Program-made: the position numbers and the translations under genes
The notes under the pieces: model-generated
The model's database searches: none
Seen by the model: only the letters and a program-made list of their open reading frames with translations
What the model was told of the DNA's origin: nothing
Shown here: in pieces, positions 1-18,445 of the stretch
Layout of the letters: each line of letters begins with the position of its first letter
Numbering within the stretch: position 1 is the first letter of the stretch
Assembly: GCF_019139815.1 (NCBI RefSeq)
Contig: NZ_CP077079.1
Span: 5,401,001 to 5,465,000 of the forward strand
Direction of reading: 5' to 3'
DNA: 64,000 bases
From: Pseudomonas asgharzadehiana
GTDB taxonomy: Bacteria; Pseudomonadota; Gammaproteobacteria; Pseudomonadales; Pseudomonadaceae

Positions 1-238
1 TTCTGGTACCTTCGGGTCCAGCAATCACCAGGGGATGTCTGTAAACCCAAAGTGATTGTCATATAGAACAGAATCGCCGTGCAGTACGTTGTGGACGAAG
101 CGGCTAAAACTTACACAACTCGCCCAAAGCACCCTGCCAGTCGGGTCGCTGAGGGTTAACTTAATAGACACGGCTAAGCATGTAGTACCGACAGCGGAGT
201 ACTGGCGGACGGGGGTTCAAATCCCCCCGGCTCCACCA
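1..238 (+). ncRNA. ssrA: tmRNA (ssrA), 3' part, 5' end outside window
   Basis: This is the pseudoknot-rich 3' portion of transfer-messenger RNA, which rescues stalled ribosomes by trans-translation. The end is tRNA-like: a T-arm (GGGGGTTCAAATCCCCC, 211-227) is followed by the acceptor 3' strand and an encoded CCA at 236-238. The 5' acceptor strand and the tag-peptide reading frame lie before base 1, so the gene is truncated by the window. The adjacent P4-type integrase fits the common use of the ssrA 3' end as an integration site. The tag peptide cannot be read here. Confidence 0.9.
216..233 (+). other. attL-like site in ssrA 3' end
   Basis: The ssrA segment TTCAAATCCCCCCGGCTC is echoed at 16,431-16,449 as TTCAAATTACCCCGGCTC, and both copies are followed by the same terminator hairpin. 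This is what integration by a tyrosine recombinase into the T-arm/acceptor region of ssrA leaves. The exact crossover cannot be fixed from sequence alone. Confidence 0.65.
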
Positions 239-249
239 CTTGATCATCT

Positions 250-276
250 AAAGACGTCCACGGACGTCTTTTTTTG
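250..276 (+). terminator. Rho-independent terminator after ssrA
   Basis: A 9-bp perfect stem (AAGACGTCC / GGACGTCTT, 251-259 and 262-270) with a 2-nt loop is followed by a run of seven T. A near-identical copy stands at 16,451-16,476 at the far island end, so this terminator belongs to the duplicated attachment region. Confidence 0.85.
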
Positions 277-425: not shown

Positions 426-1682
426 ATGTGCGCTCAAACCACCCGCCTCTCCGACCGCCAGCTCAAGGCGGTCAAACCGAAAGACAAGGATTACGTCCTC
501 ACGGATGGCGACGGGCTCCAACTGCGAGTCAGGGTCAATCGCTCGATGCAGTGGAATTTCAACTACCGGCATCCAGTAACCAAGAACCGAATCAACATGG
601 CACTCGGCTCTTATCCCGAGGTTTCTCTTGCGCAAGCGAGGAAGAAAACCGTTGAGGCCAGAGAGCTGCTTGCACAGGGCATCGATCCAAAAGCTCAGCG
701 CAATGAGCTACAGGAAGCCAAACGAGCGGAAACGGAACACACCTTCGAGAATGTGGCCACCGCCTGGTTCGAGCTGAAGAAGGATTCCGTCACGCCGGCG
801 TATGCCGAAGACATTTGGCGCTCCCTCACACTGCATGTTTTTCCGAGCATGAAATCAACGCCTCTCTCCGAAGTCAGCGCCCCAATGGTCATCAAGCTCC
901 TTCGTCCGATTGAGGCCAAAGGCAGCCTCGAGACAGTTAAGCGAGTGAGCCAGCGCCTTAACGAGATCATGACCTACGGGGTCAATTCCGGAATGATCTT
1001 TGCCAACCCTCTCAGTGGCATTCGAGCGGTGTTCAAGAAACCTAAGAAAGAGAACATGGCAGCGCTACCACCAGATGAGCTTCCGGAGCTCATGATGGAA
1101 ATCGCGAACGCCAGCATCAAGCGGACGACCCGCTGCCTGATCGAATGGCAGCTACACACTATGACCCGCCCTGCCGAAGCGGCGACTACCCGATGGGAAG
1201 ACATCGACTTCGAAAAACGCATCTGGACCATCCCTCCGGAGCGAATGAAAAAGCGTCGTCCGCACACAATCCCGCTGACCGAACATGCACTCTCGTTATT
1301 GGAGACGCTTAAGCTCCATAGCGGCCACAGGGAATATGTGTTCCCGTCAGATAGAAATCCGCGCACCCACGCGAATAGCCAGACAGCCAACATGGCATTG
1401 AAACGAATGGGCTTTCAGGACCGCTTAGTCAGCCACGGCATGCGCTCCATGGCCAGCACAATTCTGAATGAGCATGGATGGGATCCGGAGCTAATCGAAG
1501 TCGCGCTGGCGCATGTCGATAAAGACGAAGTTCGAAGCGCCTACAACCGGGCGGATTACATCGAACGCCGGCGTCCGATGATGGCCTGGTGGAGTGAACA
1601 TATCCAGAAGGCAGCCACCGGCAGCCTGTCGGCATCCGCCATCAATCAAACCAGGGACCGTAACGTCGTGCCGATACGCTGA
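426..1682 (+). CDS. int: P4-type tyrosine integrase (DUF4102 family)
   Basis: This 418-residue site-specific recombinase probably inserts and excises the island at ssrA. The N-terminal DUF4102-type arm-binding domain covers roughly residues 5-95 (LSDRQLKAVKPKD, LTDGDGLQLRV). A SAM-like core-binding domain spans about 105-205, and the catalytic domain follows with R248 (MTRPAEA), H337-x-x-R340 (SHGMR), H363 (LAHVD) and nucleophile Y373 (AYNR), so the active site is complete. The ATG at 426 has a GGAG about 8 nt upstream. The gene reads away from ssrA, and its leader holds the GGTATTCCC repeats. A decayed paralogue of residues about 81-160 lies at 16,578-16,815. Confidence 0.93.
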   Translation: MCAQTTRLSDRQLKAVKPKDKDYVLTDGDGLQLRVRVNRSMQWNFNYRHPVTKNRINMALGSYPEVSLAQARKKTVEARELLAQGIDPKAQRNELQEAKRAETEHTFENVATAWFELKKDSVTPAYAEDIWRSLTLHVFPSMKSTPLSEVSAPMVIKLLRPIEAKGSLETVKRVSQRLNEIMTYGVNSGMIFANPLSGIRAVFKKPKKENMAALPPDELPELMMEIANASIKRTTRCLIEWQLHTMTRPAEAATTRWEDIDFEKRIWTIPPERMKKRRPHTIPLTEHALSLLETLKLHSGHREYVFPSDRNPRTHANSQTANMALKRMGFQDRLVSHGMRSMASTILNEHGWDPELIEVALAHVDKDEVRSAYNRADYIERRRPMMAWWSEHIQKAATGSLSASAINQTRDRNVVPIR

Positions 1683-1767: not shown

Positions 1768-1812
1768 AGCCCCTAAGTATGGGAAGGCTCCGCATTCCCA
1801 TACTTAGGGGCT
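1768..1812. other. Perfect 17-bp inverted repeat (hairpin)
   Basis: Arms 1768-1784 (AGCCCCTAAGTATGGGA) and 1796-1812 are exact reverse complements around an 11-nt loop. The hairpin lies between the converging integrase and the 89-residue gene, 16 nt beyond the latter's stop, so it could limit read-through. It lacks a T tract, so it may instead be a binding or recombination site. Confidence 0.7.
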
Positions 1813-1828
1813 CACGCTTAAAGATCTA

Positions 1829-2098
1829 TCAGACAACCACGAGTTGCGCCTTTCTGCGGCAGATCAGCCCTGCTGTTAACTCATAGTAATAGATGGTCGC
1901 TGGTGCTGAGCAACGCAGGTAGTGCTCTAAAAACCATCTGGTGTGCTTTTCCTTCCAGGACCAAGGGGTCGCACAACTCCAGCGCTCACGAATCGCCTCG
2001 TGCATCCTTTCTGCCTGCCTGATATGCCGCTGCCGCGTGGCATGCGCACCTTTGAGCACGGGGCTCAGAAACAACGCCATATCGAACTCGGACTTCAT
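1829..2098 (-). CDS. Hypothetical protein, 89 aa, coupled to recombinase gene
   Basis: I do not recognise a named domain. The protein is soluble, rich in Arg, His and Trp (KEKHTRWFLEHYL near residues 49-61), with a basic helical N-terminal half (ATRQRHIRQAERMHEAIRER) that would suit nucleic-acid binding. Its ATG overlaps the stop of the upstream recombinase gene by 4 nt (ATGA), so the two are translationally coupled and probably work together, possibly as a directionality or accessory factor. That role is inference from position. Confidence 0.6.
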   Translation of the reverse strand: MKSEFDMALFLSPVLKGAHATRQRHIRQAERMHEAIRERWSCATPWSWKEKHTRWFLEHYLRCSAPATIYYYELTAGLICRRKAQLVVV

Positions 2099-3075
2099 CG
2101 ACGACCTCCGATGTAGGCACTCACCACGTCGATGCGGTTATGCCCCAACTCGTGGCTGATCTGCTGACGTGCACGCTGATCGAGTGCTCGATCCTCTCGT
2201 TGACCACGACCGCCATTGATGGGCGCGGAGAAGCCGGTCAGTTGTTCATAGCGCTCACAGGCGTAAGCCGCCCGCAATTCATGAAAGCCTTTCAATCCAT
2301 GCTCATGCATGATGTCCCGCGCCGGTCGTACGATTGTCTGTAAGAAATCTTTGTAGCTTTCATCAGGTGTTAACAAATTCCGACTGCCCTTGGGTGAGGC
2401 CTCGCTGGCCCTGTCGAGGGCGCCACGAACTTGATCCGTGACCGCAATCCAACGCGGTGCCGATGCTCCTGATCGACCGCCTTTGGTGCCGTCCTGGATA
2501 TTGATCTTGCCCAGTTGCCGAGCCTCACGTTGCAGCCGGGGCAAGTCCGCCAAGATCGCTTCACGCAGGCGCATGCCGGTCTCCCGAGCGAGGAGCACGA
2601 TGGCACTCACCCTCAGTTGCTGTCGCTCTGACAGCGCTTGCGCAATCAGCCTGACCTGCACACGGTCTTGGCCTTGTGGCGCCTCACTACGCACGCTTGA
2701 GCGCTGCAAGCCAAGCGCCTTACTTGGACTCGGGATTTTGACGTATTGATCACCGCGCAGCGCAGCCATCGTTCGGTTCACGCTGGACAGTCGGTTCTGC
2801 GCGGTAGCGATGCCGACGTTGCCCTGATCAACCTGCTCCCGCACGTGGACGGTGTACCGCATTAGGACTTCGCGGTCGATCTGTCGCGCATCATTGAGCC
2901 TCGGCCCTTCCTCGGATAAACACCAACGCACGAAGGCCTGCCAGCGATCACTATGGGCTTTGACGGTAGCAAAATGGCCGTCGCCAAACAGGTCTTTCAG
3001 TGCTTGCGGTCCGGCATAGCTGAGCTGGCGACCGAAGCCGAAATTGCGCCCTGCTCGCTTACCGACCCGAGCCAT
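2095..3075 (-). CDS. Integrase-domain (tyrosine recombinase-like) protein
   Basis: This 326-residue protein belongs to the group annotated as integrase domain-containing protein in Pseudomonas islands. It has a SAM-like N-terminal part (GRQLSYAGPQALKDLF, then AHSDRWQAFVRWCL) and a C-terminal catalytic part with Arg in ARETGMRLREA, HELR in the HxxR position, His in ISHELGHNRID and a terminal Tyr in SAYIGG, so the R-H-R-H-Y set looks complete. I chose the ATG at 3075 (MARVGKRAGRNFGFG), which has AGGA about 10 nt upstream; a start at 3132 would add 19 residues and a longer overlap with the preceding gene. It is the third gene of a leftward overlapping set (4805 to 1829) and is unrelated in sequence to the ssrA-proximal integrase. 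Confidence 0.8.
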   Translation of the reverse strand: MARVGKRAGRNFGFGRQLSYAGPQALKDLFGDGHFATVKAHSDRWQAFVRWCLSEEGPRLNDARQIDREVLMRYTVHVREQVDQGNVGIATAQNRLSSVNRTMAALRGDQYVKIPSPSKALGLQRSSVRSEAPQGQDRVQVRLIAQALSERQQLRVSAIVLLARETGMRLREAILADLPRLQREARQLGKINIQDGTKGGRSGASAPRWIAVTDQVRGALDRASEASPKGSRNLLTPDESYKDFLQTIVRPARDIMHEHGLKGFHELRAAYACERYEQLTGFSAPINGGRGQREDRALDQRARQQISHELGHNRIDVVSAYIGGRR

Positions 3076-3412
3076 TTTTCTGTTCCTGATCGACTGCCGC
3101 GAGATCATGCAAAAGTGCTCGCCAGTTCGCACTCACGATGGCGAACTGGGACCAATCAGTCGGGCGAAAACACAGCGTGTTGTCGGTGACGTAGAGATGC
3201 GCGCCCTGCTCTTCCAACCATTGGATAATGGAGGTCGTCGAGGTGATAGTTCTATGGAGGGTGGCGACACCGGCGACACCGGCGACAACCCTTGCCTTGC
3301 CTGCCTTTGAGCGTGGCGACAAAGTGGCGACAGTACCGGCGACAAATCGCACTTTCGGCTCCTTTTGGCGTTGAGCCAGATGGTTGCGCAGCGCTTCATC
3401 AAGATTGAACAT
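3059..3412 (-). CDS. Hypothetical protein with VAG/VAT repeat segment, 117 aa
   Basis: No family is recognised. Residues about 22-52 are a low-complexity Val-Ala-Gly/Thr stretch (VAGTVATL, then VAGVAGVATL) encoded by GTCGCC-rich DNA. The C-terminal half looks folded (SIIQWLEEQGAHLYVTDNTLCF, then WRALLHDLAAV). It overlaps the DUF3987 gene upstream by 14 nt and the recombinase gene downstream by 17 nt, so all are probably co-expressed. The repeat-encoding DNA has a homologous inverted copy near 5552-5635 outside any convincing gene, so part of this sequence may act as DNA sites. Confidence 0.55.
   Translation of the reverse strand: MFNLDEALRNHLAQRQKEPKVRFVAGTVATLSPRSKAGKARVVAGVAGVATLHRTITSTTSIIQWLEEQGAHLYVTDNTLCFRPTDWSQFAIVSANWRALLHDLAAVDQEQKNGSGR
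3260..3344. repeat. GTGGCGACA repeat array, copy A
   Basis: The array holds a 28-nt block at 3260-3287 (three GGCGACA units), a 25-nt spacer, then two GTGGCGACA units at 3313-3334 and one more GGCGACA. The same order, with the same 25-nt spacing, occurs inverted at 5551-5635, and the 28-nt block is identical. It lies inside the 117-residue gene. It could be iteron-like binding sites or a coding repeat. Confidence 0.6.
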
Positions 3413-4805
3413 GGCGCACCTCGAAGGTGTGGCCGTCGGAGATCAACCACTGATGATCAATCAACTCGACCAGCAGCTTTGCGGCATGACGACTGCTCTT
3501 GCGGGCAAAGCGGGGACCGTTGCGATTCAGATCTCGAATACTGAAGCGCGTCCACTCCTTGACCTGCAGCCAGCGCAACAGCCGGTCCGCCTCTTCTTTT
3601 ACCCTGCACACCGGCTCCTGCTCGGTCAGGCGCTGGATCTCGGTGAGGTAGTAGCCAACTAAGGCCGAGGCCCGCTGGATATGGTCGACCTCCACGACAC
3701 TGCTCTCCTCCACAACGGCCAAAATGCCGGCGACGCGCAAAAGGTTGTCGGCGGCCTTCGAACCGCTGGGCCGCACGCTGGCCAGCTCGCCAAACTCACC
3801 CAGCTGAGCTTCGATAGCATCATGCAAATCAATCCAGCGACGACGGGCCAACGGACTGAGTGTCAGCGGTGATAGCCGCAAGGCCCCGTCAGCGGAAAGT
3901 GACCAAGGCTGATGAAACAGAGCCGAAAGACGGTGGTGATATCGCTTTAGGGCGGGATCTTTGGACAAGTTGACCGCCTGGTAACTGCGTTGTCCGGCCA
4001 GGCTGGTGGGCCAGGTCATGAGGCAGCGACCGAGAATGCCTTGCCCCTGCAGCAACGGGTCACTGAGTAACTGCATGGCTAGATACGGTTGCAGCATCAG
4101 GTGCAGGCTTAAGCGTCGATCGTAAGCTCGCAAGCTTTCACCCACCATTGACCGCGCGCGATCTATCGGACTGCCGTCCCAGAGTGACGACAGGGTCGTA
4201 ACGGCTTTCAAACGGTTATCCCGACTCATGGTACTGCTACCGAGGAATTGTCCCCCCTCGTCACAGAACAGGCCCATGCTCGGCAAGTCATGGCAGAGTC
4301 CCTTGATCAGGGCCTCGATAGTCGGATCCGTGGTGATCAGCCTAGGTGCTGAGGGCTCCGCTTCAAGCGGTACGCCGTTTGTGGGGTTGGGATCACCAGG
4401 GTTGATACGCTGCGCCTGTCGCTGCGCGACACGGTACCGGGCTAGTTGTTCGCGATAGCGCTGCCACTGCTCACGCTCCCATTGCCGTGCGGGCAGCAAT
4501 GCAAATCGATCTGCCGCCGTTTTGCGATCGCCGGATGCGGCCACGGTGATCAGGTACAGCGACAGCGGATAATTTCTCCCATCGAGCTGTAAGCCCGCAT
4601 GACCTTGAGTGGCCAGCGCCGAAGCAGCCAGCACCGATTGTGCAGCCAATGCCTGGGGCACCCCGATGACCTCAGCCATGCGTTCGACTGCTGGCCCAAG
4701 AATCCCACCCAGTGCCTGCACCGGATAAGGCTGGGCCACGGGATTCGACTCAATCAGCGGTCGAGGTAGTCGTGGTAGTTCAAGCTTCGGATCTAACTGC
4801 TGCAT
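3399..4805 (-). CDS. DUF3987 (YfjI-like) family protein
   Basis: This 468-residue protein resembles the DUF3987/YfjI family found on phages, plasmids and islands, whose members look like primase/helicase-related replication proteins. A degenerate P-loop-like segment (VAASGDRKTAAD, about residues 88-99) matches the family's SGxRKS position, and an acidic DEGGQFLGS motif follows near 187. The C-terminal about 70 residues look like a winged-helix domain (WTRFSIRDLNRNG ... LIDHQWLISDG). The ATG at 4805 is preceded by a strong AAGGAGAGGG site, and it is the first gene of the leftward set. A role in replicating the excised island is likely from family context but unproven. Confidence 0.75.
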   Translation of the reverse strand: MQQLDPKLELPRLPRPLIESNPVAQPYPVQALGGILGPAVERMAEVIGVPQALAAQSVLAASALATQGHAGLQLDGRNYPLSLYLITVAASGDRKTAADRFALLPARQWEREQWQRYREQLARYRVAQRQAQRINPGDPNPTNGVPLEAEPSAPRLITTDPTIEALIKGLCHDLPSMGLFCDEGGQFLGSSTMSRDNRLKAVTTLSSLWDGSPIDRARSMVGESLRAYDRRLSLHLMLQPYLAMQLLSDPLLQGQGILGRCLMTWPTSLAGQRSYQAVNLSKDPALKRYHHRLSALFHQPWSLSADGALRLSPLTLSPLARRRWIDLHDAIEAQLGEFGELASVRPSGSKAADNLLRVAGILAVVEESSVVEVDHIQRASALVGYYLTEIQRLTEQEPVCRVKEEADRLLRWLQVKEWTRFSIRDLNRNGPRFARKSSRHAAKLLVELIDHQWLISDGHTFEVRHVQS

Positions 4806-5078
4806 GGGCCCTCTCCTTGTTCATTGCTGGTTGTCCTCACGTAGTCCCGCCACGGCTGTTGAGTGTTATCAGGGATCAAGGCCCCTGCGGCCTGTGAGGT
4901 GTTCACTGACGTGGAACGAACGGCTCCTTACGACCGGGAGCAAGGGCATGACCCCATGAATCTGGCCTCCTTAGACGCATCCGAATATGCGGGCGGGTGG
5001 AGGCTGTGCCGACTGACGAGTTCGGCACCTAGAGATCATGGGTGGGAGAAGGCAAAGATCTAGACACCCTGGGGCATG

Positions 5079-5095
5079 CCTGACTGTCAGTCAGG
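5079..5095. other. Inverted repeat CCTGACT-N3-AGTCAGG
   Basis: Perfect 7-bp arms lie around a 3-nt loop. It is the first of three hairpins in 190 nt of noncoding island DNA. Function unknown. Confidence 0.5.
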
Positions 5096-5195
5096 TGCAG
5101 CCTTTCCATTGGCTGCGGCACCGGTGCCTGTGTCGTTGCGGATGGCGACGAATCGGCTTTGTCAGGCCGATTGTCACGAGGAGAGTCGCGGCAAT

Positions 5196-5212
5196 GCCAT
5201 GTAAGACATGGC
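5196..5212. other. Inverted repeat GCCATGT-N3-ACATGGC
   Basis: Perfect 7-bp arms lie around a 3-nt loop. It is the second of the clustered hairpins. Function unknown. Confidence 0.5.
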
Positions 5213-5229
5213 TTGCAGCAGTGGTACGA

Positions 5230-5264
5230 GCGCCCGTCTCTTTCCAGGAGAAAGAGACGGGCGC
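5230..5264. other. Perfect 15-bp hairpin, GC-rich
   Basis: Arms 5230-5244 (GCGCCCGTCTCTTTC) and 5250-5264 pair completely around a 5-nt loop (CAGGA). No T tract follows on either strand, so it is not a classic terminator. It may be part of a structured RNA or an origin. Confidence 0.7.
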
Positions 5265-5550
5265 GGATTGGCGCAGCGAATTGAGCCGAGAGGTGAGGTT
5301 GCTGCAGCGCAGCGAGGTAGGTCCATCGTCTGCCGCAGTGGGCAGATCAGTCGAGTAGGCATCCATCACTCTTGGGAAGTGATCGTGCGAGCCGCCGGAC
5401 GCTAATCGCACTGTGGGAGAACCACCACGCAAGTGGCGTAGCCTTAAAGGTTCTGGCTACCTGGGCAGGTGCTGTCAACGACAGCGATCCGTGCGCCAAT
5501 TTTTATACCCACTCGAAAAGGCGGTCAAGCGTCACGGCTAATGCGCTCAG

Positions 5551-5635
5551 AAAGTGGCGACTGTCGCCACTTTTGTCGCCACCCTCCTGGCCCCGTTCTG
5601 CATGGGATGTCGCCGGTGTCGCCGGTGTCGCCACC
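5551..5635. repeat. GTGGCGACA repeat array, copy B (inverted), with palindrome
   Basis: This mirrors the array at 3260-3344. A perfect palindrome with 11-bp arms (AAAGTGGCGAC, 5551-5561, and its complement 5563-5573) begins it, a further GTCGCC unit and a 25-nt spacer follow, and a 28-nt block (5608-5635) exactly complementary to 3260-3287 ends it. It is about 70 nt upstream of the reading frame that leads into the GHKL/Z1 operon. Confidence 0.6.
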
Positions 5636-6029
5636 TCTCTAGTCATAGCCCGACGACAAGCTCGGCTCTGACGCTGAGACTGCGTTCCGCTCGAGAACAA
5701 TTACTCAGATAAGAGGAGACGTGGCGCTATTCAAATTTGAAATGGAATGGTGGAACGAGGTGGCTTCGAGAAAAGCAAGTGAACCCTCCGATCGGCGCGA
5801 TCAAAGATCGCTGGATCGGAGGGTTTGGCGGGAAAGGCAAAGTTTCAAACGTCAATTACAAACTCAGGCATCAAAGCTGGTTAATTTGGAAGTGGGGCTT
5901 CACGCCGCATGATCAGCGCCTGCTGCAAACGCAGCAGAAAACCTGCTTCAAAAGCTTCCTAATAGCCCCCTGGACGATGACGTTTTCGGTTCTGAGACTG
6001 TTGGGACCGTTTGCTATGAGGTGGCCCTT

Positions 6030-6245
6030 ATGCAAAACCTAGAAGTCGGGCCGCGGCTGGACTTCAAAGGCCATAGATATGTCTTCGAGCAGCGAAAAAG
6101 TCAATTTGCCACCATGGTCGGACTATATGTGGCAGATGGCGCGTTCGAGAGCTATCGACAACAAGCGCATTTCAGATACGCTCGCCTGATGGAAGACAAA
6201 AAACGTTCAGCAGGGGCTCTTCCCCAGCGTCATGTGGCGAATTGA
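6030..6245 (+). CDS. Possible small protein or gene remnant before the GHKL operon
   Basis: A 71-residue frame begins at ATG 6030 (MQNLEVGPRLDFKGHRYVF) with GAGG 8 nt upstream and ends 10 nt before the GHKL start. The same frame is open back to about 5721 except for one TGA at 5910-5912, giving about 175 codons in all, so this may be the tail of a broken longer gene rather than a separate one. The pattern of a short beta-rich segment followed by FRYARLMEDKKRSAG faintly recalls N-termini of Mu/TnsB-type transposases, but the match is too weak to name a family. Confidence 0.3.
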   Translation: MQNLEVGPRLDFKGHRYVFEQRKSQFATMVGLYVADGAFESYRQQAHFRYARLMEDKKRSAGALPQRHVAN

Positions 6246-6255
6246 ATGGGGACAT

Positions 6256-7722
6256 ATGAGGCATGTAAATAATCCTCCTGACGCGTCCGCGCTGATGGCC
6301 TCGGCGCGTAGCTTTGGGAATTACGACCTGTCGAGTGCTCTTGCAGATCTAATAGACAACAGCATCAAGGCAAGAGCCCACAGCATCGATATCAAATGCA
6401 TCAGGAAGGATGATGGGCCCGAGGTCAGAATTTTGGATGATGGATCCGGAATGACAGCGGTTGAACTTCATCGGGCGATGAGACCCGCCAGCACTAACCC
6501 CAATGAGGAACGGGCTCCTGATGACCTCGGCCGTTTCGGGTGGGGCATGAAGTCGGCATCACTTTCACAATGCCGGCACTTGACCGTTGTCACGAGACAG
6601 AATGGCGCTCTGTCCGGCGCGTCTTGGAATCTGGATGATATCGCCAACTGGAAGATGGGAGTTCTTGATCCCGATGAGATTGAAGCTCAAGTCGATCAAC
6701 GCCTGCTTGAGCGCGACGGGACAGAGATCATCTGGAGCATGTGCGATCGCCTGTCCGAATATGGTCAAGTTGGCGGCAGGGGCTTCAATGATCTAGTCGC
6801 GCACGCCCAAAAGAAGCTGTCGCTCATTTTCCATCGCTATCTGGGAGGCGAGGAAGGCCTTCGGAAACTCAGAATCAGTTTCAATGGTAGCGTGCTGAAG
6901 CCGACGGATCCTTTTCTCCGCAACCATAATGCAACGCAGGCCCAGCCGAAGGAAGTTCTTAACTTCGATGGCCAGCCTATTGGGGTGCAGGCCTTCATCC
7001 TACCGCACTATTCGAAGTTAACTGCGGGCGAGCACGATCAGCTCGGCGGTGAAGAAGGTTTCGTTCGCAATCAAGGTTTCTATGTTTACCGACAGCACCG
7101 GCTCATCATACACGGGACCTGGTTTCGACTGGTGAGGCACGGCGAGTTGTCACAACTTGTCCGGATCGCCGTCAACATCCCCAACGCCCTCGATGCGATA
7201 TGGAAGATCACGCTCGACAAGGCAGACGCACAGCTGCCTTCGGGGCTCAAAAGCCGTTTGAAGGACATCGTCGGCGGACTCAAGAGCAGATCGGGAAAGG
7301 TATTTCAGTCCCGCGGCGGGCGAATTCGCGAAGGAACTGGAAAAACGTCAGTCTGGGCTAAATACGTGCGCAACGGTGAGGTTCGCTATTACATCAACCG
7401 CGAGCACCCGCTGATAACCGGTATGCTAGAGGACGAGGATAGAGACAGAGCCAAAGCCTTTTCGGCAGCGCTCGGAATCATCGAAGACTGCTTCCCAATT
7501 ATAAGCATCGGCGAGGACTATTCGTCTCGCCCGGAAATGATGAATCAGGGCGTACTAGACAGGGATAGATTTCTCGACAAATTCGACACAGCCCTCCCCT
7601 CACTGCTGCTTCACTCAGGCGGCGACATGAAAGCGCTGCGTGAACTTCTTGCATCAACTGAACCGTGGGCTAGTCAAGCCGACCTCGTCGTAAAACACCT
7701 CAAGGACAAAGGGTGGTGGTAA
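6256..7722 (+). CDS. MutL/MORC-like GHKL ATPase of defence operon
   Basis: This 488-residue protein opens a four-gene operon. The N-terminal Bergerat-fold ATPase is clear: the N-box at about residues 28-36 (ADLIDNSIKA), the Mg/ATP motif DDGSGM at about 61-66, and the lid and glycine motif GRFGWGMKSAS at about 92-102. The rest resembles the transducer domain of MutL/Hsp90-type proteins plus an unassigned C-terminus. Such ATPases are known in restriction-modification-type operons, where they are thought to act as ATP-driven DNA clamps. I chose ATG 6256 (MRHVNNPPDASALM), with a GGGGA just upstream; an in-frame ATG at 6232 would add 8 residues without a good ribosome site. Its stop abuts the next start (7723). 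Confidence 0.88.
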   Translation: MRHVNNPPDASALMASARSFGNYDLSSALADLIDNSIKARAHSIDIKCIRKDDGPEVRILDDGSGMTAVELHRAMRPASTNPNEERAPDDLGRFGWGMKSASLSQCRHLTVVTRQNGALSGASWNLDDIANWKMGVLDPDEIEAQVDQRLLERDGTEIIWSMCDRLSEYGQVGGRGFNDLVAHAQKKLSLIFHRYLGGEEGLRKLRISFNGSVLKPTDPFLRNHNATQAQPKEVLNFDGQPIGVQAFILPHYSKLTAGEHDQLGGEEGFVRNQGFYVYRQHRLIIHGTWFRLVRHGELSQLVRIAVNIPNALDAIWKITLDKADAQLPSGLKSRLKDIVGGLKSRSGKVFQSRGGRIREGTGKTSVWAKYVRNGEVRYYINREHPLITGMLEDEDRDRAKAFSAALGIIEDCFPIISIGEDYSSRPEMMNQGVLDRDRFLDKFDTALPSLLLHSGGDMKALRELLASTEPWASQADLVVKHLKDKGWW

Positions 7723-10410
7723 ATGTTTGATAGCGAACTTGCGTATTTCCGCTCGATAATCAACAAGCAACATGGCGAAGACATTGCCCAAGGACAAGGC
7801 TTACCAGAAGGTGCGATCACTTCTATCGTTCGCAACGGGCCGTTTCAGCACCTTGGTGAACCAGCAATCAATGCGATTATCCGCGAATTGGAAGCTAGTT
7901 TTACGGTTACCCAGAAGCGGGGGGCTGTTATCACAAAAGGCCACCGGCCCTGGCTGGCAACAATGCGGCCAGCTCTGGACTTCTATTACTGGAATCGCCT
8001 ACGCAAATACTATCTCGAGACGGGGACTCTCCCGTCGCCCGTGCTTGCCACCCTCGACTCCGACACGGATGAAATTCTCGACCAATGCGGCAATCCGAAA
8101 GACGAACTCTACGGCGCAGTTCGCGGCATGGTCATGGGAAATGTCCAGTCGGGCAAGACCACCAACTACTCTGCGCTGATCTGCAAGGCAGCCGACGCGG
8201 GCTATCGTGTAATTATCCTACTCGCAGGGATAACCAACTCGCTGCGCGCCCAGACGCAGGAACGAATTGACGAGACATTCATCGGCAAGGTCTCGATGTT
8301 TGGCGCGGCTGCACAGCAGTCGCTGCCGATCCAGAATTATGCAGCGACGCGGCGAATCCCCTCTTACGGCACAACTCGGGTAGCCGATTTTTCGAGCGGC
8401 ACGGATGGAATCTATTTCGGTCTATCAGGTCATCAGGAGCCGATGATCTTCATAACCAAAAAAAACAAATCCATCCTTGAACGTCTCGCACACTGGATAG
8501 AGAAACAGGGAGAGACGGGCGGCTATGACCTGCCACTTCTGCTGATCGACGACGAAGCCGACAATGCGTCTATCAACACGGCCACTGACCCCAAGCGGAC
8601 TACCGCCATCAACGGTATCATCCGACAGATCTTGTCGCGTTTTCCGCGCTCGGCATATATCGGTTATACCGCTACACCGTTCGCCAACATCTTCATCGAT
8701 CCGGAAACGACGGCGGAAATGGAGACGGATGACCTTTTCCCCGGAAACTTTATCAAGGCGCTTGATCCGCCTACCAATTATGCAGGTTCACATCGAGTTT
8801 TCCGAGAGGGCGGTGACTTACGCTCGAGCATGGTCAAGGTCATTGATGACTATCGAGCGCTGCTGCCGCTGAGACACAAAAGCGGAGACAATGTGGCCGA
8901 CATCCCGGAAAGTCTGCGCCACGCGATCCGTGTATTTTGCATAACGAGGGCAATAAGGGTATTCCAAGATAAGGGCAAAGCCCACTGTTCGATGATGATC
9001 AACGTCAGCCGATTCAATGCCATCCAAGACAAGATTCTCGGACTCGTTTACGAATATCTTACGGAGATCAAGGACGCAGTCTCGGTCCATGCATCGCTGC
9101 CGCTTGATGAGATCAACGATGAGATCATGGCTCATCTCGAAAACAGTTTCACGGTCGAGTTCGGTAACTCTGGGCTCAACTGGCGCGATCTTCTCGAAGT
9201 TCTTAATGAAGGTGTCCAATCCATCGAAGTCCGCACCGTCAATATGCGGGGTGGCAAGCTCGATTATTCACTGCGCAAATCAGAAGGTCTTCATGTAATC
9301 GCCATCGGCGGGCTGGCGCTTTCACGCGGCCTCACGCTCGAAGGCCTCACAATCTCCTATCTCCTGCGGAACGCTACTGCAAGCGACACCCTTATGCAGA
9401 TGGCTCGCTGGTTCGGCTACCGACCGGGCTATGAGGAATATTGCCGCCTCTATCTGCCGCAGGTGTCCTTCGACCATTACGAATTTGTAGACGAAGCGAC
9501 AGAAGAACTTAGAAGCGAGATCAAGCGTATGCAGGCCGCACGCCGCACACCGCGCGATTTCGGCCTCAAAGTCCGGCAGAGCCCGCTCGCCATCCGGGTA
9601 ACTGCGGCAAACAAGATGCGGACGGCGGAAAAGCTTAAAATCGCTCAGGACTATTCCGCGCGTCACATCGAGGGTTTCGCGCTTCCAAATGATCCTGTCA
9701 TCGGAAAAGCCCATCGCAATGCGGTCGAAAAATTTCTCATCGCGCTCGGAAGCCCCACTGAAATACACAAGGGCTATATTCACTGGGCCGCGGGCGGGCG
9801 AGACGTACTAAGTCTCATGCGCGAATTCCAGTTCGTGGATCATCCCGATCTCTCAGTGATTTCCGATACATCCCTTCTCGGGGACTATGTTCAGGACCGC
9901 GTCACGGATGAACTCGAAAAATGGGATGTGGTACTTCCCATGCGCCAGTCGGGCGACTCTACTCCATTTGCTGGTCAGAAGATCAATTTGAGGTCTCGGG
10001 ACCAAGGAACAGTTCAGAAGGGCACTTATCGAGTTTATGGCAGCAAGAATCGCGTTGCCGATCCTGGGGACGCGCAGATCGGCCTGTCAGACCCACAGAA
10101 GGCAAAGGCAGATGCTGCCTACCGTGCTGAAACATACAAGAAGGAACGCGCCGCGTGTTCTGTACGAGAGCGGCCGATGATGTTGGTGCATGTCTTCAAT
10201 GCGAAGCTGCGCGACGATCGAAACGATCGTGACGAGGATCTCAAACTTAACGATCCCATCGTCACGCTTTCTTTCTGCATGCCCGAGACAGGTAAACCCG
10301 CCAAGGAGAGAACCTACCAAGTGAATGCTGTCTATCGGCAGCAACTTGAGCACTTTGCCGCTGAGGAAGACGATGACTCTGAAGCGATGATGGAGGCTCA
10401 AGATGCTTAG
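7723..10410 (+). CDS. Z1-domain helicase-like NTPase
   Basis: This 895-residue protein carries the Z1 domain, a superfamily-2-like NTPase found in restriction and phage-resistance operons. Visible motifs are Walker A GNVQSGKTTN (139-148), Walker B LLIDDEAD (273-280), YTATPFAN (315-322, motif III-like), SRGLTLEG (from about 534) and QMARWFGYRPGYE (from about 559, motif VI with arginine finger). The C-terminal about 250 residues are family-specific. It probably translocates on or remodels DNA and delivers it to the nuclease partner. The start follows directly on the GHKL stop, and its end overlaps the next gene by 8 nt, so expression is coupled. Confidence 0.92.
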   Translation: MFDSELAYFRSIINKQHGEDIAQGQGLPEGAITSIVRNGPFQHLGEPAINAIIRELEASFTVTQKRGAVITKGHRPWLATMRPALDFYYWNRLRKYYLETGTLPSPVLATLDSDTDEILDQCGNPKDELYGAVRGMVMGNVQSGKTTNYSALICKAADAGYRVIILLAGITNSLRAQTQERIDETFIGKVSMFGAAAQQSLPIQNYAATRRIPSYGTTRVADFSSGTDGIYFGLSGHQEPMIFITKKNKSILERLAHWIEKQGETGGYDLPLLLIDDEADNASINTATDPKRTTAINGIIRQILSRFPRSAYIGYTATPFANIFIDPETTAEMETDDLFPGNFIKALDPPTNYAGSHRVFREGGDLRSSMVKVIDDYRALLPLRHKSGDNVADIPESLRHAIRVFCITRAIRVFQDKGKAHCSMMINVSRFNAIQDKILGLVYEYLTEIKDAVSVHASLPLDEINDEIMAHLENSFTVEFGNSGLNWRDLLEVLNEGVQSIEVRTVNMRGGKLDYSLRKSEGLHVIAIGGLALSRGLTLEGLTISYLLRNATASDTLMQMARWFGYRPGYEEYCRLYLPQVSFDHYEFVDEATEELRSEIKRMQAARRTPRDFGLKVRQSPLAIRVTAANKMRTAEKLKIAQDYSARHIEGFALPNDPVIGKAHRNAVEKFLIALGSPTEIHKGYIHWAAGGRDVLSLMREFQFVDHPDLSVISDTSLLGDYVQDRVTDELEKWDVVLPMRQSGDSTPFAGQKINLRSRDQGTVQKGTYRVYGSKNRVADPGDAQIGLSDPQKAKADAAYRAETYKKERAACSVRERPMMLVHVFNAKLRDDRNDRDEDLKLNDPIVTLSFCMPETGKPAKERTYQVNAVYRQQLEHFAAEEDDDSEAMMEAQDA

Positions 10411-11386
10411 TGAATGGAAAGCGATCGTGCCGCCAACAGACCCAGGTTGCTACAACATTCGACTTGCTGACAGCAGCCATCCGCTCGATTTCAGGATCGG
10501 CCGTGACTTTCACGGATGTTTTATCTTCCAGCTCGATGGCGAGTGCGCTTTGCCTGGAGTTCCTGACCTGCCGAAGATGTCGGCAGTGACCTGCGAGGTC
10601 CATCCGATGGCCGCTGGGCGTTCAAGATTAGTGCTGAGCCTGGGTGATGCTGCCGATCTCAGAAATTTCGCCCTTATGTGCAAGAGCCTCATGCTTGCAA
10701 CAGACAAGTTTGCACCGACACAGTCCGGAAAGGGGCTGATTCAAGCCATCAAGGAGGTCCACCGTTGGCAGGAGATGCTGAGCCATAGGACCGACCGCAT
10801 ACTGTCAAAAGGCGAGCAGATTGGCCTGGTCGGCGAAATGCTGTTTCTACGGGATGTTCTTAGTGACCGCATCGGTTGGAATGCTGCGATCAAATGCTGG
10901 AATGGCCCTAGCGGTCATGAGCAGGATTTTGTCGTCGCCGGCACCATCTTTGAGGTCAAGACTCAGGTGGTGACTGCCGACCGGCGAATTCGGATTTCCT
11001 CCGAAGATCAACTCGATCCAGTCCAAGGGCGCATCCTGCTCTGCAATCAGGGAATCGCACCGCTGCCATCCACTGCCCCATCAGCTCGGACTCTCAATGC
11101 TCTTGTGTCAGAGATTCGAGAAGCTTTTGCCGAGGCTGGAGCAAACGCCTTGGAACTTTTTGAGATCGCTCTACTGGAAGCGAGATATCAGGAGCGGCAG
11201 GAATATAACGAAGAAAGCTGGGTTCTCGTTGACCGTATTTTCTATGAGGTGTGCACTACCTTTCCTCGTATCGAGCGCAGTGATCTCCGCCCCGGCGTAG
11301 AGAGGGTTACCTACAGCATTCGGGTGAGCGACTGCATTCCCTTCATCATCAGCCATGATGATGCCTTTGAGGGAGTCGAAGCATGA
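10403..11386 (+). CDS. PD-(D/E)XK motif protein (DUF4420 family)
   Basis: This 327-residue protein is a predicted nuclease. Conserved nuclease-fold elements are GLVGEMLFLRDVL (E near residue 148), D175 (HEQDFVV) and E184-V-K186 (IFEVKTQ), giving an intact D-(X)n-EXK catalytic set. Members of this family are found beside Z1 and AIPR genes. It overlaps the Z1 gene by 8 nt and the AIPR gene by 4 nt (ATGA), so it is made in step with both. It is the best candidate for the DNA-cleaving subunit, though specificity must come from other parts of the system. Confidence 0.85.
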   Translation: MLSEWKAIVPPTDPGCYNIRLADSSHPLDFRIGRDFHGCFIFQLDGECALPGVPDLPKMSAVTCEVHPMAAGRSRLVLSLGDAADLRNFALMCKSLMLATDKFAPTQSGKGLIQAIKEVHRWQEMLSHRTDRILSKGEQIGLVGEMLFLRDVLSDRIGWNAAIKCWNGPSGHEQDFVVAGTIFEVKTQVVTADRRIRISSEDQLDPVQGRILLCNQGIAPLPSTAPSARTLNALVSEIREAFAEAGANALELFEIALLEARYQERQEYNEESWVLVDRIFYEVCTTFPRIERSDLRPGVERVTYSIRVSDCIPFIISHDDAFEGVEA

Positions 11387-13458
11387 GCGATTTGCAGCAA
11401 GCATTCGAAGTGCTACGAGAGGATATTCTTCTAGAAGCGGAGGTACGGGGCGTCTTCCAGCAAGAGGCTTTTTTCGAGCTCTATGCCGCATCGGCGTCAG
11501 ACAACGGCGACACCATCGACTTGGAGTACACCCACAGTCACAAGGAAGGTGGACGGAGGCCATACCGAATCGACGGCTATGGGTTTGATACCGATCGCGG
11601 AACGCTCTATCTCGCCGTCTGCGATTACCGGGACGGAAAGGAACTGGAGTCTATACATAATGACCGCCTAACCTCAGTGTTCAAGCAAGCAATCGCCTTT
11701 TTCGAAAATGCCTGTTCATCGGTGTTCATCAATTCAATTGAAGAAACAAGTCCAGCGTTTGCAGCGGCCTATCCCATCTATTCAACACGTGATCTCATCA
11801 AGAGAGTTCGCATCATCCTTTTTTCCAACGCCCGCCTGGCGACCAAACGACCGCCTCAGCTGGGCGAGCAAGTAGGCGGATTGCCGACTGTTTATAGCGT
11901 ACTTGACGCGACTCGTTATTTCGAAATCCAAAAAAGTTTTCAAATTCCTGAGTCTATCGAAGTCAATATCGCAGAAATTGCCGGAGAGCCTATTGCCTGC
12001 CTCAAGGCCTCGACAAACACCGAAGAACATCAATCCTACCTCCTCGCCATTCCGGGCCCAGTGCTTGCTGAAGTCTACGGTCTATACGGAGCACGACTGC
12101 TCGAACAGAACGTCCGGACCTATCTCCAGGCTAAGACGAAGGTGAACAAGGGTATTCTGGAAACAATCAAGAAGACGCCAGAGATGTTCTTTGCTTACAA
12201 CAACGGCCTAACCGCGACCGCATCGGCGGTTAAGCTCGAGATACTGGAAGACGGGCAGCTAGGAATTGCAGCTATTCATAACCTTCAGATCGTGAATGGC
12301 GGCCAGACGACGGCGTCTATCCTATACGCAAAGGATGTCGCAAACTCACCGCTCGAGCGTGTCTATGTGCAAATGAAACTCTCAGTAGTTCCACCTGCCC
12401 ATATCGAGCAGGTCGTACCAAAAATTTCGCGATACGCCAACACTCAGAATCGTATCTCAGAGGCAGACTTCTTCTCGAGCCATCCGTTCCATCTGCAAAT
12501 GGAGCGTTACTCCCGGATAATGACAGCACCACCTCAGAACGGTGCGATGACGGGCGACAAATGGTTCTATGAGCGCGCACGCGGGCAGTACCGCGACGGC
12601 ATGGCGTACGCGTCCGTGGCAGGAAAGAAAAAATATCAGTTGGAGTATCCTAGGGAAAAGATTATCGAAAAGACCGACCTTGCGAAGTATCTCCTGAGTT
12701 TCGAAAGAAAGCCTTACATTGTATCTAGAGGCGCGCAGAAAGCCTTCATGGGGTTCGCCGATCAAACCGCGAAAGCTTGGAAGTCCGCTCCTACCCAATT
12801 TAACGAACTTTGGTATAGAAATGCTTGCGCGATGGGGCTGATATTCCGCTGGACCGACAAGCATGTTGCTGGCTCCGACTGGTACAAAGATGACCGCGGC
12901 TATAAATCCCAGACAGTTGCCTATACGCTTTCTTGGATTGCCGAGGAGATCGATCGCCAAGGCAAGGCAAGCCTAAACTGGGGACAAATCTGGAATACTC
13001 AATCCGTCCCGGAAGAGCTTCAAGAGCTTATCGCCTCTCTTGCCCCACAGGTTGCTGCCGCTCTCAGAAATACTTCTGCAAATGTTCGGAACGTCGGCGA
13101 GTACTGCAAACTGGAAATTTGCTGGCAAAATATCAGAGCTGCAGAATTCAACGTTCAGGCAGTACCTGATCATTTGGTGCTCGACGAAAATGAGATGACG
13201 CAAGAGAAAAAAGAAGCGAAGTCGTCTGCAAGGATCGATAGTGAAATCGACTTCGACGTGCTCCTTCACATGCTCGGACCCAAGGCCGAAATTATTCGTC
13301 GGACTGCCGAGCAGCATAGATTCCTGTCGCCAAAGGCTGACAGGGCCCTTCAGAAGATAGGATCGGGAAATCTCAACCTAGCAAGGCCAGATAAGAATGC
13401 AATCAAGCTGCTTGTGAAGAGAATGGCGGAGGAAGGGATGCCCGTCGAAGATATGTAG
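11383..13458 (+). CDS. AIPR family protein (abortive infection phage resistance)
   Basis: This 691-residue protein matches the AIPR family, named from an abortive phage-resistance determinant. The signature runs from FFAYNNGLTATASAV (about residue 268) through IHNLQIVNGGQTTASI (about 298-313) to ISRYANTQNRISEADFF (about 348). An N-terminal region of about 200 residues with a YFEIQKSF segment may be a second, nuclease-like domain, as suggested for this family. It ends the four-gene operon; 410 nt without a clear gene separate it from the converging methyltransferase gene. It may be the effector or a second nuclease of the system; biochemistry is unclear. Confidence 0.88.
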   Translation: MSDLQQAFEVLREDILLEAEVRGVFQQEAFFELYAASASDNGDTIDLEYTHSHKEGGRRPYRIDGYGFDTDRGTLYLAVCDYRDGKELESIHNDRLTSVFKQAIAFFENACSSVFINSIEETSPAFAAAYPIYSTRDLIKRVRIILFSNARLATKRPPQLGEQVGGLPTVYSVLDATRYFEIQKSFQIPESIEVNIAEIAGEPIACLKASTNTEEHQSYLLAIPGPVLAEVYGLYGARLLEQNVRTYLQAKTKVNKGILETIKKTPEMFFAYNNGLTATASAVKLEILEDGQLGIAAIHNLQIVNGGQTTASILYAKDVANSPLERVYVQMKLSVVPPAHIEQVVPKISRYANTQNRISEADFFSSHPFHLQMERYSRIMTAPPQNGAMTGDKWFYERARGQYRDGMAYASVAGKKKYQLEYPREKIIEKTDLAKYLLSFERKPYIVSRGAQKAFMGFADQTAKAWKSAPTQFNELWYRNACAMGLIFRWTDKHVAGSDWYKDDRGYKSQTVAYTLSWIAEEIDRQGKASLNWGQIWNTQSVPEELQELIASLAPQVAAALRNTSANVRNVGEYCKLEICWQNIRAAEFNVQAVPDHLVLDENEMTQEKKEAKSSARIDSEIDFDVLLHMLGPKAEIIRRTAEQHRFLSPKADRALQKIGSGNLNLARPDKNAIKLLVKRMAEEGMPVEDM

Positions 13459-13868
13459 GACGGCCTAACTAACGTATTCTGCCGAGCAGAAAGCCGATCT
13501 TGTGCGCTCGTTGAGCAGTGGTCACAATTCACCTCCAGCAATGCTGCCAACGCAGCCTGTCACAAGCTCGCCGTTAGGCATGAGCGAGTGGAGTGAGGTA
13601 TCACTGGCGACAGCTCCATTGCACTACATCGTGGTTTCCTAATGCTAGTTAGTACATTAGCTAAGGAGCAAAATGACCAACCACTATCGCCTGCGAGGCG
13701 CCTTTGTGCTGGTTCAGTAGCACCTTTTCGTGGGCCAAGATCGCCAACGATCTAGTAACCACCAATACGCTACCGACCGTTGTCCGGAGCTCGCCCAACT
13801 TTTAAATTTTCGCGACATCTTGCAGCTCAACTCTCGATAACTGGAGAGATAGTTGCGGTTTTCACCTG
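13459..13868. other. Intergenic region between AIPR and methyltransferase genes
   Basis: This region separates convergent genes yet contains a translation-initiation-like site. AAGGAG at 13,662-13,667 precedes ATG 13,673, and the frame stops after 15 codons at 13,720. Just upstream is GCTAGTTAGTACATTAGC with GCTA/TAGC ends. No terminator with a T tract was found for either flanking gene. Confidence 0.5.
13673..13720 (+). CDS. Possible 15-codon peptide or truncated gene start
   Basis: The frame encodes MTNHYRLRGAFVLVQ after a good Shine-Dalgarno (TAAGGAG, 5 nt before ATG). It could be a leader peptide, a small regulator, or the surviving 5' end of a gene whose body was deleted when the cassette was assembled. 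Nothing in the peptide identifies it. Confidence 0.25.
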   Translation: MTNHYRLRGAFVLVQ

Positions 13869-15530
13869 TCATTCACCCATAACATCTTTAGTTTCGGAAA
13901 TACGCCGACAAACAACGTCATAGACTATTTTTGCGATTCTGTTCGCCAGTAGAGGCGGTACCGCATTACCCACTTGATGGTACTGCTGAGTTCGATTCCC
14001 TTCAAAATAGTAGTTATCCGGGAATGTCTGGAGCCGCGCAGCCTCGCGAACGGTCAGACTACGGCATTGCGCTGGGTCGTAATGGATAAAATAGTGCCCA
14101 TCCTTCGAGATATGGCTAGTGATAGTCGTGGCCGGAAATTCTGCAAGCTGCACCCGGAAGCGGTCACTGAACTTACCGCTTTCCCAATTCTTATGAGCGG
14201 GCGCAAGGCCAGGAAGTGAGAATTGCTGATGGCCCTTGGGCGAATACTTATTGTGCGCAGCGAAGGTGCTAGCAAAGACGTATCGTCGCAGGTCCGAGCG
14301 CATATGGCTGCGGGCGTCGTGACTCATCCAATATTTGATATTGGCATCGTGATACCAAGCATCCAGCGATGGTATCCCTGTATTACCCTGACCTTTCTCC
14401 TTTGGCACCCTTTCAGCGCCTGAACTCCGCGGCGCATCGAAGAGTGCTCGCCGGGTAGCTTGAAGTGGGGAGATCATTTCGCCACTATCAAGCTCGGCAT
14501 AATGCAACAACTCATCTACTTCATCGGCAACAGTTCGATACCATTCTTCCTGACAATCCGAGCGCCGCGATAGCTTGCTTCTCAGCCTAGGAAGTTTGCC
14601 TATGGCTTGCTGAACCGACACTGGGTCAGTTTTTGTCAAAAGCTCATGCTCAGGAACGTTACCGTTCTCATCTAGAGCTATCCCAAGAAGGATAACGCGA
14701 TGGCGGGCTTGCGGAATTCCGTACTTTTCAGCTTCGATGATATATGACTTTGGTTTCACACTGTCGATACAATCTAAAAAGCTAAACGCCTCCTCGGAAA
14801 CCAGTGAACATATCTTGTATTTCTGCCCGCCCTCTTTGTTATCTAGTGCTTTGCTAGGATCAACCAGATCTTGCAGAATCTGCGAGAAAATCCCTTTGCC
14901 TCCGACTTTGGACGACAAGATACCTTTGACGTTTTCCATGACAAAGACGGTAGGTCGGTAGTCTTTGATGATGCGTAGATAATCCTTGTACAGAAAATGC
15001 CTATTATCATTCTCCGCGACGTAATCCTTCTTGGCTTTGTTTCTGGCTCGACCCACGATCGAATATGCTTGGCATGGAGGCCCGCCGATGAGTACCCATG
15101 GACGCCCTATCTTATTCAACCTGGCTTTGATGAGTCCATTTAACTCTTTGTCGCCCTCCTCCGAACCCAAGGTTATCTGCCGTGCTTCCTGCTCGGCACG
15201 GTTCCAGAATGCCGCGGTTTCAGGGGTGCTACTAGGCTTTTCTGCCTCTCCATTACAGTAACGGTAATAGTCCTGCAGCCCGGCAGGGTATTCGCGCTTG
15301 AGCAATCGGTAGTAAGCACGAAGTCTTAGCGTCCTCCTGGCAACAGGATCCATTTCAGCAGAAACGATGATATCGAAGTGCTTGCCTTCTCCTGAGGATG
15401 AAAAACCCTCACCCAACCCGCCAGGTCCAGCGAAAAGGTCGACGATCTGGATAGCATCCTCAACCGCAATAGCTGGCTTGGCGGTCGTGCTTGGCGGGAA
15501 AAGGGAGTTCTGGTAGTCAATCATGGGCAT
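13869..15530 (-). CDS. DNA cytosine-C5 methyltransferase (Dcm type)
   Basis: This 553-residue enzyme would transfer methyl from SAM to C5 of cytosine. With numbering from the TTG one codon upstream, motif I is DLFAGPGGLGEGF (32-44), motif IV GGPPCQAYS with catalytic Cys154, motif VI ENVKG (200-204), motif VIII QARHRV (275-280) and motif X QVGNAVPPLLA (520-530), so it appears complete. The target-recognition region between VIII and IX is long (about 200 residues). It is longer than the usual 320-450, with an insertion between motifs I and IV. The start is uncertain: ATG 15,530 or 15,524, neither with a strong ribosome site. It converges on the GHKL-AIPR operon and diverges from vsr; it probably protects host DNA from that system. 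Confidence 0.93.
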   Translation of the reverse strand: MPMIDYQNSLFPPSTTAKPAIAVEDAIQIVDLFAGPGGLGEGFSSSGEGKHFDIIVSAEMDPVARRTLRLRAYYRLLKREYPAGLQDYYRYCNGEAEKPSSTPETAAFWNRAEQEARQITLGSEEGDKELNGLIKARLNKIGRPWVLIGGPPCQAYSIVGRARNKAKKDYVAENDNRHFLYKDYLRIIKDYRPTVFVMENVKGILSSKVGGKGIFSQILQDLVDPSKALDNKEGGQKYKICSLVSEEAFSFLDCIDSVKPKSYIIEAEKYGIPQARHRVILLGIALDENGNVPEHELLTKTDPVSVQQAIGKLPRLRSKLSRRSDCQEEWYRTVADEVDELLHYAELDSGEMISPLQATRRALFDAPRSSGAERVPKEKGQGNTGIPSLDAWYHDANIKYWMSHDARSHMRSDLRRYVFASTFAAHNKYSPKGHQQFSLPGLAPAHKNWESGKFSDRFRVQLAEFPATTITSHISKDGHYFIHYDPAQCRSLTVREAARLQTFPDNYYFEGNRTQQYHQVGNAVPPLLANRIAKIVYDVVCRRISETKDVMGE

Positions 15531-15838
15531 CAATGGTTTAGATATCAGGAATGCAACAGCGTATGCAGCAGAGCCGCGCTACTTTACTAGGATTAGGGCG
15601 GTAGTGCAGCTACAGCCGCTCTGGCGACGATTGCATCTACTCGGTGCCCATTTTGAAGTGGCCATCAAGTCAACCTGCAGCGGCGGAAACACAATTCCAG
15701 ATCACGGTCCATCCCTTGGCACACTAAAAACATTCCCAAATCCCCTAGAGGCCGTAAATAGAACAGTGATTTATATGGACTTAGCGAGCGCCAAGTCGTA
15801 ACCCTACGCGAGAGTAGGCGCATCTGAGGGAAAGATTG
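15531..15838. other. Divergent intergenic region, methyltransferase / vsr
   Basis: These 308 nt must hold the promoters of both divergent genes. It is less GC-rich than its surroundings. I see no clear operator palindrome, although control of methyltransferase genes from such regions is common. Confidence 0.4.
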
Positions 15839-16297
15839 ATGGATATCGTCAGTAAAGAAGTCAGGTCTCGCATGATGGCCAGCATCCGCAGCAGCAATAC
15901 AGCTCCGGAGATGAAGGTTCGGAAGCTGCTGCATAGGAATGGCTTCAGGTATCGTCTGCATCCACGGGAGCTACCAGGTCGCCCCGACGTGGTGTTGCCT
16001 CGCTACCGCGTCTGCATATTCATTCATGGCTGCTTCTGGCATAGGCACCCCGGGTGCAGATATGCGACCAACCCCAGTTCTCGCGAAGATTTCTGGCGCT
16101 TGAAATTCGAGCAGAACGTGAAGAGAGATACGATAAACAGAAGCGCGTTGCTACAACAGGGTTGGCGCGTCTTCGAGCTATGGGAGTGCGGAATCCGCAA
16201 ACCGGAAGCAGAACTCAAATGGCTTCTGGAAGCTGTGCCTAATTGTAATCAACAATTCATCTCTTGGCCCTCTTTGCCTGCCGTCACCTCTAGCTGA
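15839..16297 (+). CDS. vsr: Very short patch repair endonuclease Vsr
   Basis: This 152-residue endonuclease nicks 5' of T in T:G mismatches that arise when 5-methylcytosine deaminates, which fits its position beside a cytosine-C5 methyltransferase. Family features are VRSRMMASIRSSNT at the N-terminus, catalytic D50 in GRPDVVLP, the zinc/active-site cluster HGCFWHRHPGCR (63-74) and WRVFELWEC near the end. ATG 15,839 is chosen because GAGGGA lies about 8 nt upstream; a TTG one codon earlier is possible. It is the last intact island gene before the right attachment region. Confidence 0.93.
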   Translation: MDIVSKEVRSRMMASIRSSNTAPEMKVRKLLHRNGFRYRLHPRELPGRPDVVLPRYRVCIFIHGCFWHRHPGCRYATNPSSREDFWRLKFEQNVKRDTINRSALLQQGWRVFELWECGIRKPEAELKWLLEAVPNCNQQFISWPSLPAVTSS

Positions 16298-16356
16298 CCT
16301 CGATGCTCAGGCTCGGCTCCACAACTGCTCGTCGAGAGGCAAAGAATACTTGTCGC

Positions 16357-16376
16357 GGTATTCCAATTGGTATTCC
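16357..16376 (+). repeat. GGTATTCC pair near right island end (candidate arm sites)
   Basis: GGTATTCC at 16,357-16,364 and 16,369-16,376 has the same orientation and 12-nt phasing as the pair at 352 and 364. Lying just inside the right attachment-like site, it is likely bound by the same integrase. Confidence 0.55.
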
Positions 16377-16430
16377 GCCTAAAAATAAAAACAGATATTT
16401 ACTATATAAATCAATTTCTTACCAGAGCAA

Positions 16431-16449
16431 TTCAAATTACCCCGGCTCT
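16431..16449 (+). other. attR-like site
   Basis: TTCAAATTACCCCGGCTC matches the ssrA 3' end at 216-233 with a few differences. It is followed at once by the duplicated terminator but lacks about 15 nt (the ssrA CCA end and adjoining bases). This marks the right boundary of the island with the intact integrase. Confidence 0.6.
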
Positions 16450-16450
16450 A

Positions 16451-16476
16451 AAGACGTCCACGGACGTCTTTTTTGG
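16451..16476 (+). terminator. Duplicated ssrA-type terminator at right island end
   Basis: The hairpin AAGACGTCC / GGACGTCTT with a following T run repeats 250-276. Similarity to the left copy continues for roughly 100 nt (GTGCCTGAAATCCA, then an AAATAC segment and CTTTC), so an old integrase leader was duplicated too. Confidence 0.75.
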
Positions 16477-16577
16477 TGCCTGAAATCCAATAAATACAGG
16501 GGCTTCAGCGCTTATGGGAGCTTTCTAGGTTTTTTAAACTCTAGGCATTTTGGCGTCCCATTTTGGGCATGTGGACC

Positions 16578-16815
16578 GCTGGTGCAAGGCACTGCCCCCA
16601 AAGCTCACCGCGAGGCGCCGAGGCAAGCCAGTCTGTCGGAGGCCGAAGACAGATTCGAGAATGTCGCCACGACCGGGTTCAAGTTGAAAAAACGCCGTCA
16701 CCCCAGCCTGCACCGAAGACATTTGGTGTCTCACTCACTCTGCATGTTTTCCCCGCTTGAAAACCACACCACTCGCGGATATCACAGTGCCTACGCTCAG
16801 CAAGCTCCTTAGCGC
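16578..16815 (+). pseudogene. Decayed tyrosine integrase fragment
   Basis: This DNA resembles nt 668-910 of the intact integrase gene. The segments encoding FENVATAWFELKK and WRSLTLHVFP are recognisable (TTCGAGAATGTCGCCACGAC and a CACTCTGCATGTTTT segment), but frameshifts, internal deletions and loss of both ends make it non-functional. It stands after its own copy of the ssrA terminator and leader. It is the relic of an earlier, related element at ssrA, on the chromosomal side of the present island. Confidence 0.8.
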
Positions 16816-17215
16816 CATAAAGTCCAAAACATGGCGCATTGCGAACCACAAAAAACGCCCCCCTCGCAAACTTATTACAACCCCCTTTCAACCTTAATCA
16901 TTCTCAACATCCAACTAGCAAGTTAGCGAACTATCTATTCCACCCCATCAACTGGATAGACAAACACAAACCACCCATCGCTTTAACGATAAACCCCCTC
17001 GTTATTTTGTTTTCAAATGCATTTCAAATACCCACACCCATGCTAATGTCATTACGATATCAGTGCTGTTTAAGCAGGCCTGGGAGGTTATTCGTTGCCC
17101 CACATTCTCTCTACTACCAAAGTCTAATAACGATATTTGTGGAGTCACCAATATCCGAGGCGCGCGCATCCTCTTCTAGACGCGTAATAAGAAGACCATC
17201 AGCAGAGGGCATACC
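16816..17215. other. AT-rich intergenic region before HD-GYP gene
   Basis: These 400 nt join the relic element to core genome. They are strongly AT-rich compared with flanking genes, and no gene or hairpin with a clear role is visible. The HD-GYP promoter should be here. Confidence 0.5.
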
Positions 17216-18316: not shown

Positions 18317-18445
18317 GCAACTTACAGCGCTGTACAGCATGCCAATGCCAAAGCAGCCGATGATCCAATAAGCCGTGCGAATACAAAGACACTGGAATGT
18401 CGACATCCGATTATTTTGGTCGTTATGAGCGTGGGCGAAAACATC

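Follow-up and report, generated by a model that had tools for sequence, protein, structure and literature searches.

An MZA-type core in a Pseudomonas island suggests restriction not keyed to one cytosine methyltransferase

Does the core of an MZA defence system depend on which cytosine methyltransferase accompanies it? MZA (mzaABCDE) is said to have been named as an anti-phage system by Gao et al. in 2020. The question is raised by a window of 64,000 nucleotides from Pseudomonas asgharzadehiana (contig NZ_CP077079.1, positions 5,401,001 to 5,465,000), in which four operon genes of MZA type, the core, lie beside genes for a C5-cytosine DNA methyltransferase and the mismatch endonuclease Vsr (Table 1). 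Sequence comparison suggests that the restriction core is not keyed to one methyltransferase, because its genes co-evolve tightly while the methyltransferase and Vsr follow them weakly, because a related core has a Dcm-type partner, and because the four Escherichia coli mza loci inspected carry no linked methyltransferase; how such a core may work we infer from these patterns.

The core genes match the NCBIfam and PADLOC models of MzaB, MzaC, MzaD and MzaE, in MZA order. None of the four proteins reaches its NCBIfam equivalog cut-off (Table 1), and local alignments give 32, 37, 24 and 29% identity to E. coli MzaB, C, D and E. E. coli mza also has the sigma factor MzaA; in contrast, no sigma-like open reading frame was seen in window positions 3001-20000. 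Of 39 loci with an AIPR-type core, 9 have a sigma-like gene directly before the GHKL gene (L060, L062, L063, L065, L066, L075, L078, L125, L131), and at L061 such a frame lies on the far side instead. All six proteins are 100% identical in Pseudomonas ovata strain F51 (L002). The earlier note on this DNA had read a six-gene defence system here, and its observations stand: the six frames are intact, the operon joints exact, the domain assignments secure (Pfam), and the nuclease residues D175/E184/K186 are in place, together with E145. Vsr was also rightly named, since it has counterparts of E. coli D51, H64, W68 and H69 besides its alignment with the E. coli enzyme. The interpretation is partly supported. 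The combination of genes is already published; no paper on the MZA mechanism was found within an open-access library. The window holds a real, intact MZA-type system of a known kind, with its composition already in print.

Indeed, operons of GHKL ATPase, helicase, DCM and Vsr were published in 2008 as MORC/paraMORC restriction operons (Iyer, Abhiman & Aravind, PMC2292703). The available text of that paper gives the same GHKL ATPase, superfamily II (SFII) helicase with a DThhQXuRhFG motif, restriction-endonuclease-fold nuclease, DCM, Vsr and AIPR; the exchange of methyltransferases described below is found, as far as that text goes, only in the present comparison. A paper of 2022 (PMC9523054) reported the core genes together with a C5 methyltransferase as a "type II" putative system. 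Its accessible part states Vsr-like repair endonucleases for type I, whereas in the present comparison Vsr also accompanies the AIPR type; it prints DUF4220, whereas the window nuclease is DUF4420. CglI and NgoAVII (PMC4267653) differ in having three genes, a PLD+B3 nuclease rather than DUF4420, and neither GHKL nor AIPR protein; no PLD+B3 domain of this type was found by Pfam in the six window proteins.

The four core genes co-evolve tightly, with identity correlations of 0.95-0.98 across 22 loci, whereas the methyltransferase and Vsr track the core at only 0.18-0.36. In another Pseudomonas (L003), core proteins 87, 90, 81 and 88% identical to those of the window are accompanied by EcoRII and a Dcm-type methyltransferase that is 23% identical to the window's. 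At L084, with a methyltransferase of the window type, the core proteins are 91, 88, 82 and 87% identical. No replaced block separates the window and L003 cores, and mild local identity dips occur in the GHKL and DUF4420 proteins. A different, smaller methyltransferase (323-354 aa) is found at L131, L079, L060 and L061, and a nuclease-methyltransferase pair of another kind adjoins the core at L003, L131 and L137. A C5 methyltransferase is linked at 38 of the 39 AIPR-core loci: downstream and opposite in 17, upstream on the same strand in 15, upstream and opposite in 4, downstream on the same strand in 2. In the decayed core copy on a Devosia sp. plasmid (L141), the methyltransferase is likewise in fragments. 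In the 6.1-Mb genome, no C5 methyltransferase frame was found besides that of the window (both matches lie inside it), and the window's Vsr is the only PF03852 match. These comparisons suggest that the core is inherited as one unit and that the methyltransferase is swapped in and out; no mention of such exchange was found in the consulted portions of the literature on these systems.

As a separate observation, an AspBHI-type nuclease (RE_AspBHI_N + Mrr_cat; L131:11714-12883), with a homologue in L079, lies between the mza core and the C5 methyltransferase. AspBHI and MspJI read 5-methylcytosine; at L131 a possibly 5-methylcytosine-dependent nuclease of this type coexists with a C5 methyltransferase.

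DNA resembling mza occurs in 56 of 5,426 E. coli genomes, partial matches included. Four of these loci, each taken over 21 kb, have no methyltransferase or Vsr annotated, unlike the window; because they belong to one lineage, they amount to one natural experiment. One has mzaB interrupted by an insertion element. Each has on the mzaA side a restriction-endonuclease gene, intact or broken, which is of Mrr type in the single locus examined. Chromosomal dcm and vsr were both present in the two strains checked among the four.

A possible account, which we hold tentatively, is that MZA-type cores do not themselves recognise any particular sequence. They would sense whether 5-methylcytosine is present or absent, or be steered by any cellular C5 methyltransferase; one core would serve many, and E. 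coli mza would borrow Dcm and Vsr. DISARM likewise uses methylation as a self mark, with a core proposed to be independent of any one sequence (PMC9142583), and BREX does so with its methyltransferase acting as specificity factor (PMC11341690). The PADLOC matches listed for the six proteins, which for the methyltransferase are the best 25 of 56, include no DrmA/DrmB or BREX core model; the one DISARM-like component among them is the DrmMII-like methyltransferase.

EcoRII and Dcm target CCWGG. It is conceivable, if unlikely, that the core is specific for this site and that the window, EcoRII/Dcm-type and host Dcm methyltransferases all methylate it and are hence interchangeable. Against this, the target-recognition region spans 216 residues in the window type and 126 in the Dcm type, the profiles of the two differ (hhalign probability 0.6%, the Dcm side being one sequence), four loci have the smaller methyltransferase, and the Serratia DISARM methyltransferases have other targets (PMC9142583). 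Classical restriction-modification, in which core and methyltransferase share one site and small core changes accompany every swap, could draw on the alignment of the MzaD C-domain with PvuII/EcoRV-type enzymes, on the residual core-methyltransferase correlation and on the mild local dips. It appears improbable on indirect evidence: cores whose methyltransferases are 23% identical show no replaced block, and core distance from the window is about equal with a different methyltransferase (L003) and with the same type (L084).

The core and the methyltransferase/Vsr pair may instead be two independent systems in shared islands, the core acting by abortive infection triggered by a phage product, with methylation not needed. 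The E. coli loci, the varying side and orientation of the methyltransferase and the other nuclease-methyltransferase pairs beside the core speak for such independence; the linkage at 38 of 39 loci, a count without a control set of other island neighbours, and the joint decay in Devosia speak against it, and we consider it doubtful.

The AIPR protein is predicted to have an N-domain of PD-(D/E)XK fold followed by the AIPR domain (AlphaFold2 model, mean confidence pLDDT 82.3; structure comparison); the putative site in the N-domain is non-standard and variable across the family. For residues about 211-357 of the protein, a ParB-like fold is a candidate reading. Among 60 nearer homologues, D64 and D81 are invariant and R at 83 nearly so; in the wider family, D64 is kept in 16/36, D81 in 13/36, and K stands at 83 in 2/36. 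The AIPR motif QIVNGGQ is invariant by residue counts, and presumably resembles the DGQQR motif of DUF262. In the GHKL ATPase, the N-box position is an aspartate (D39), as in 35/35 core homologues; the catalytic residue of the MutL N-box is glutamate. This may point to slow or regulated ATP hydrolysis.

Table 1. Features of the island and its defence genes in the window
Feature	Position	Strand	Evidence
ssrA (tmRNA), 3' part; island integration site	1..238	+	Rfam RF00023, 97 bits, truncated by the window's 5' end
Putative attL: left 28-bp direct repeat, immediately 3' of ssrA	247..274		Window self-comparison
Tyrosine integrase with Arm-DNA-bind_3 domain	426..1682	+	Pfam PF00589, PF22022, PF13356; PHROG integrase
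Second integrase-like protein, island backbone	2095..3132	-	Pfam Integrase_1 2.2e-07
DUF3987 (YfjI-type) protein, island backbone	3399..4805	-	Pfam PF13148 9.6e-74
radC RNA motif	5359..5502	-	Rfam RF01754, 93.8 bits vs gathering score 40
MzaB-like GHKL ATPase	6256..7722	+	HATPase_c_3; PADLOC MzaB 3.7e-68; NCBIfam MzaB 286.9 bits vs cut-off 850
MzaC-like protein	7723..10410	+	PADLOC 3.4e-123; NCBIfam 481.7 bits vs cut-off 1500
MzaD-like PD-(D/E)XK nuclease (DUF4420)	10403..11386	+	PADLOC 8.6e-16; NCBIfam 99.7 bits vs cut-off 420
MzaE-like AIPR protein	11383..13458	+	PADLOC 4.2e-69; NCBIfam 320.3 bits vs cut-off 1050
C5-cytosine DNA methyltransferase	13869..15533	-	Profile searches (Pfam, PADLOC, NCBIfam)
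Vsr mismatch endonuclease	15836..16297	+	Profile searches; alignment to E. coli Vsr (1cw0), 7.2e-29
Right 28-bp direct repeat, putative attR	16447..16474		Window self-comparison

The six genes are cargo of a mobile 16.2-kb island in ssrA (247-16474), bounded by a perfect 28-bp repeat and otherwise containing two integrase-like genes, the YfjI-type gene and the radC RNA motif. G+C content is 52.5% over the stretch of the six genes and 60.8% over the flank 20600-64000. In L002 and L005/L084, parts of this backbone adjoin a core of the same kind; in L091 and L143 (a 19-kb circular P. putida record), they adjoin other cargo. The second integrase-like protein has 67-70% identical counterparts in L084, L005, L091 and L143. 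No gene was recognised in the 1.4 kb that separate the YfjI gene from the operon, and it is here that the radC RNA motif lies. Right-flank segments 16476-16553 and 16597-16828 are 71-81% identical to left-end parts 276-353 and 687-920, and may be left over from an earlier island. In P. aeruginosa, the defence hotspot cDHS2 is flanked by ssrA, according to the part of PMC10250203 consulted.

The comparison reduces the MZA mechanism to one testable question, that with which we began. If the core is indifferent to its methyltransferase, MZA would join DISARM and BREX among defences whose target reading is separate from the effector. The purpose of E. coli Dcm is a puzzle, and such indifference would offer a concrete candidate answer. 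Were the core to read 5-methylcytosine or follow any C5 methyltransferase, Dcm would gain a defence role as the self mark for a mobile system.
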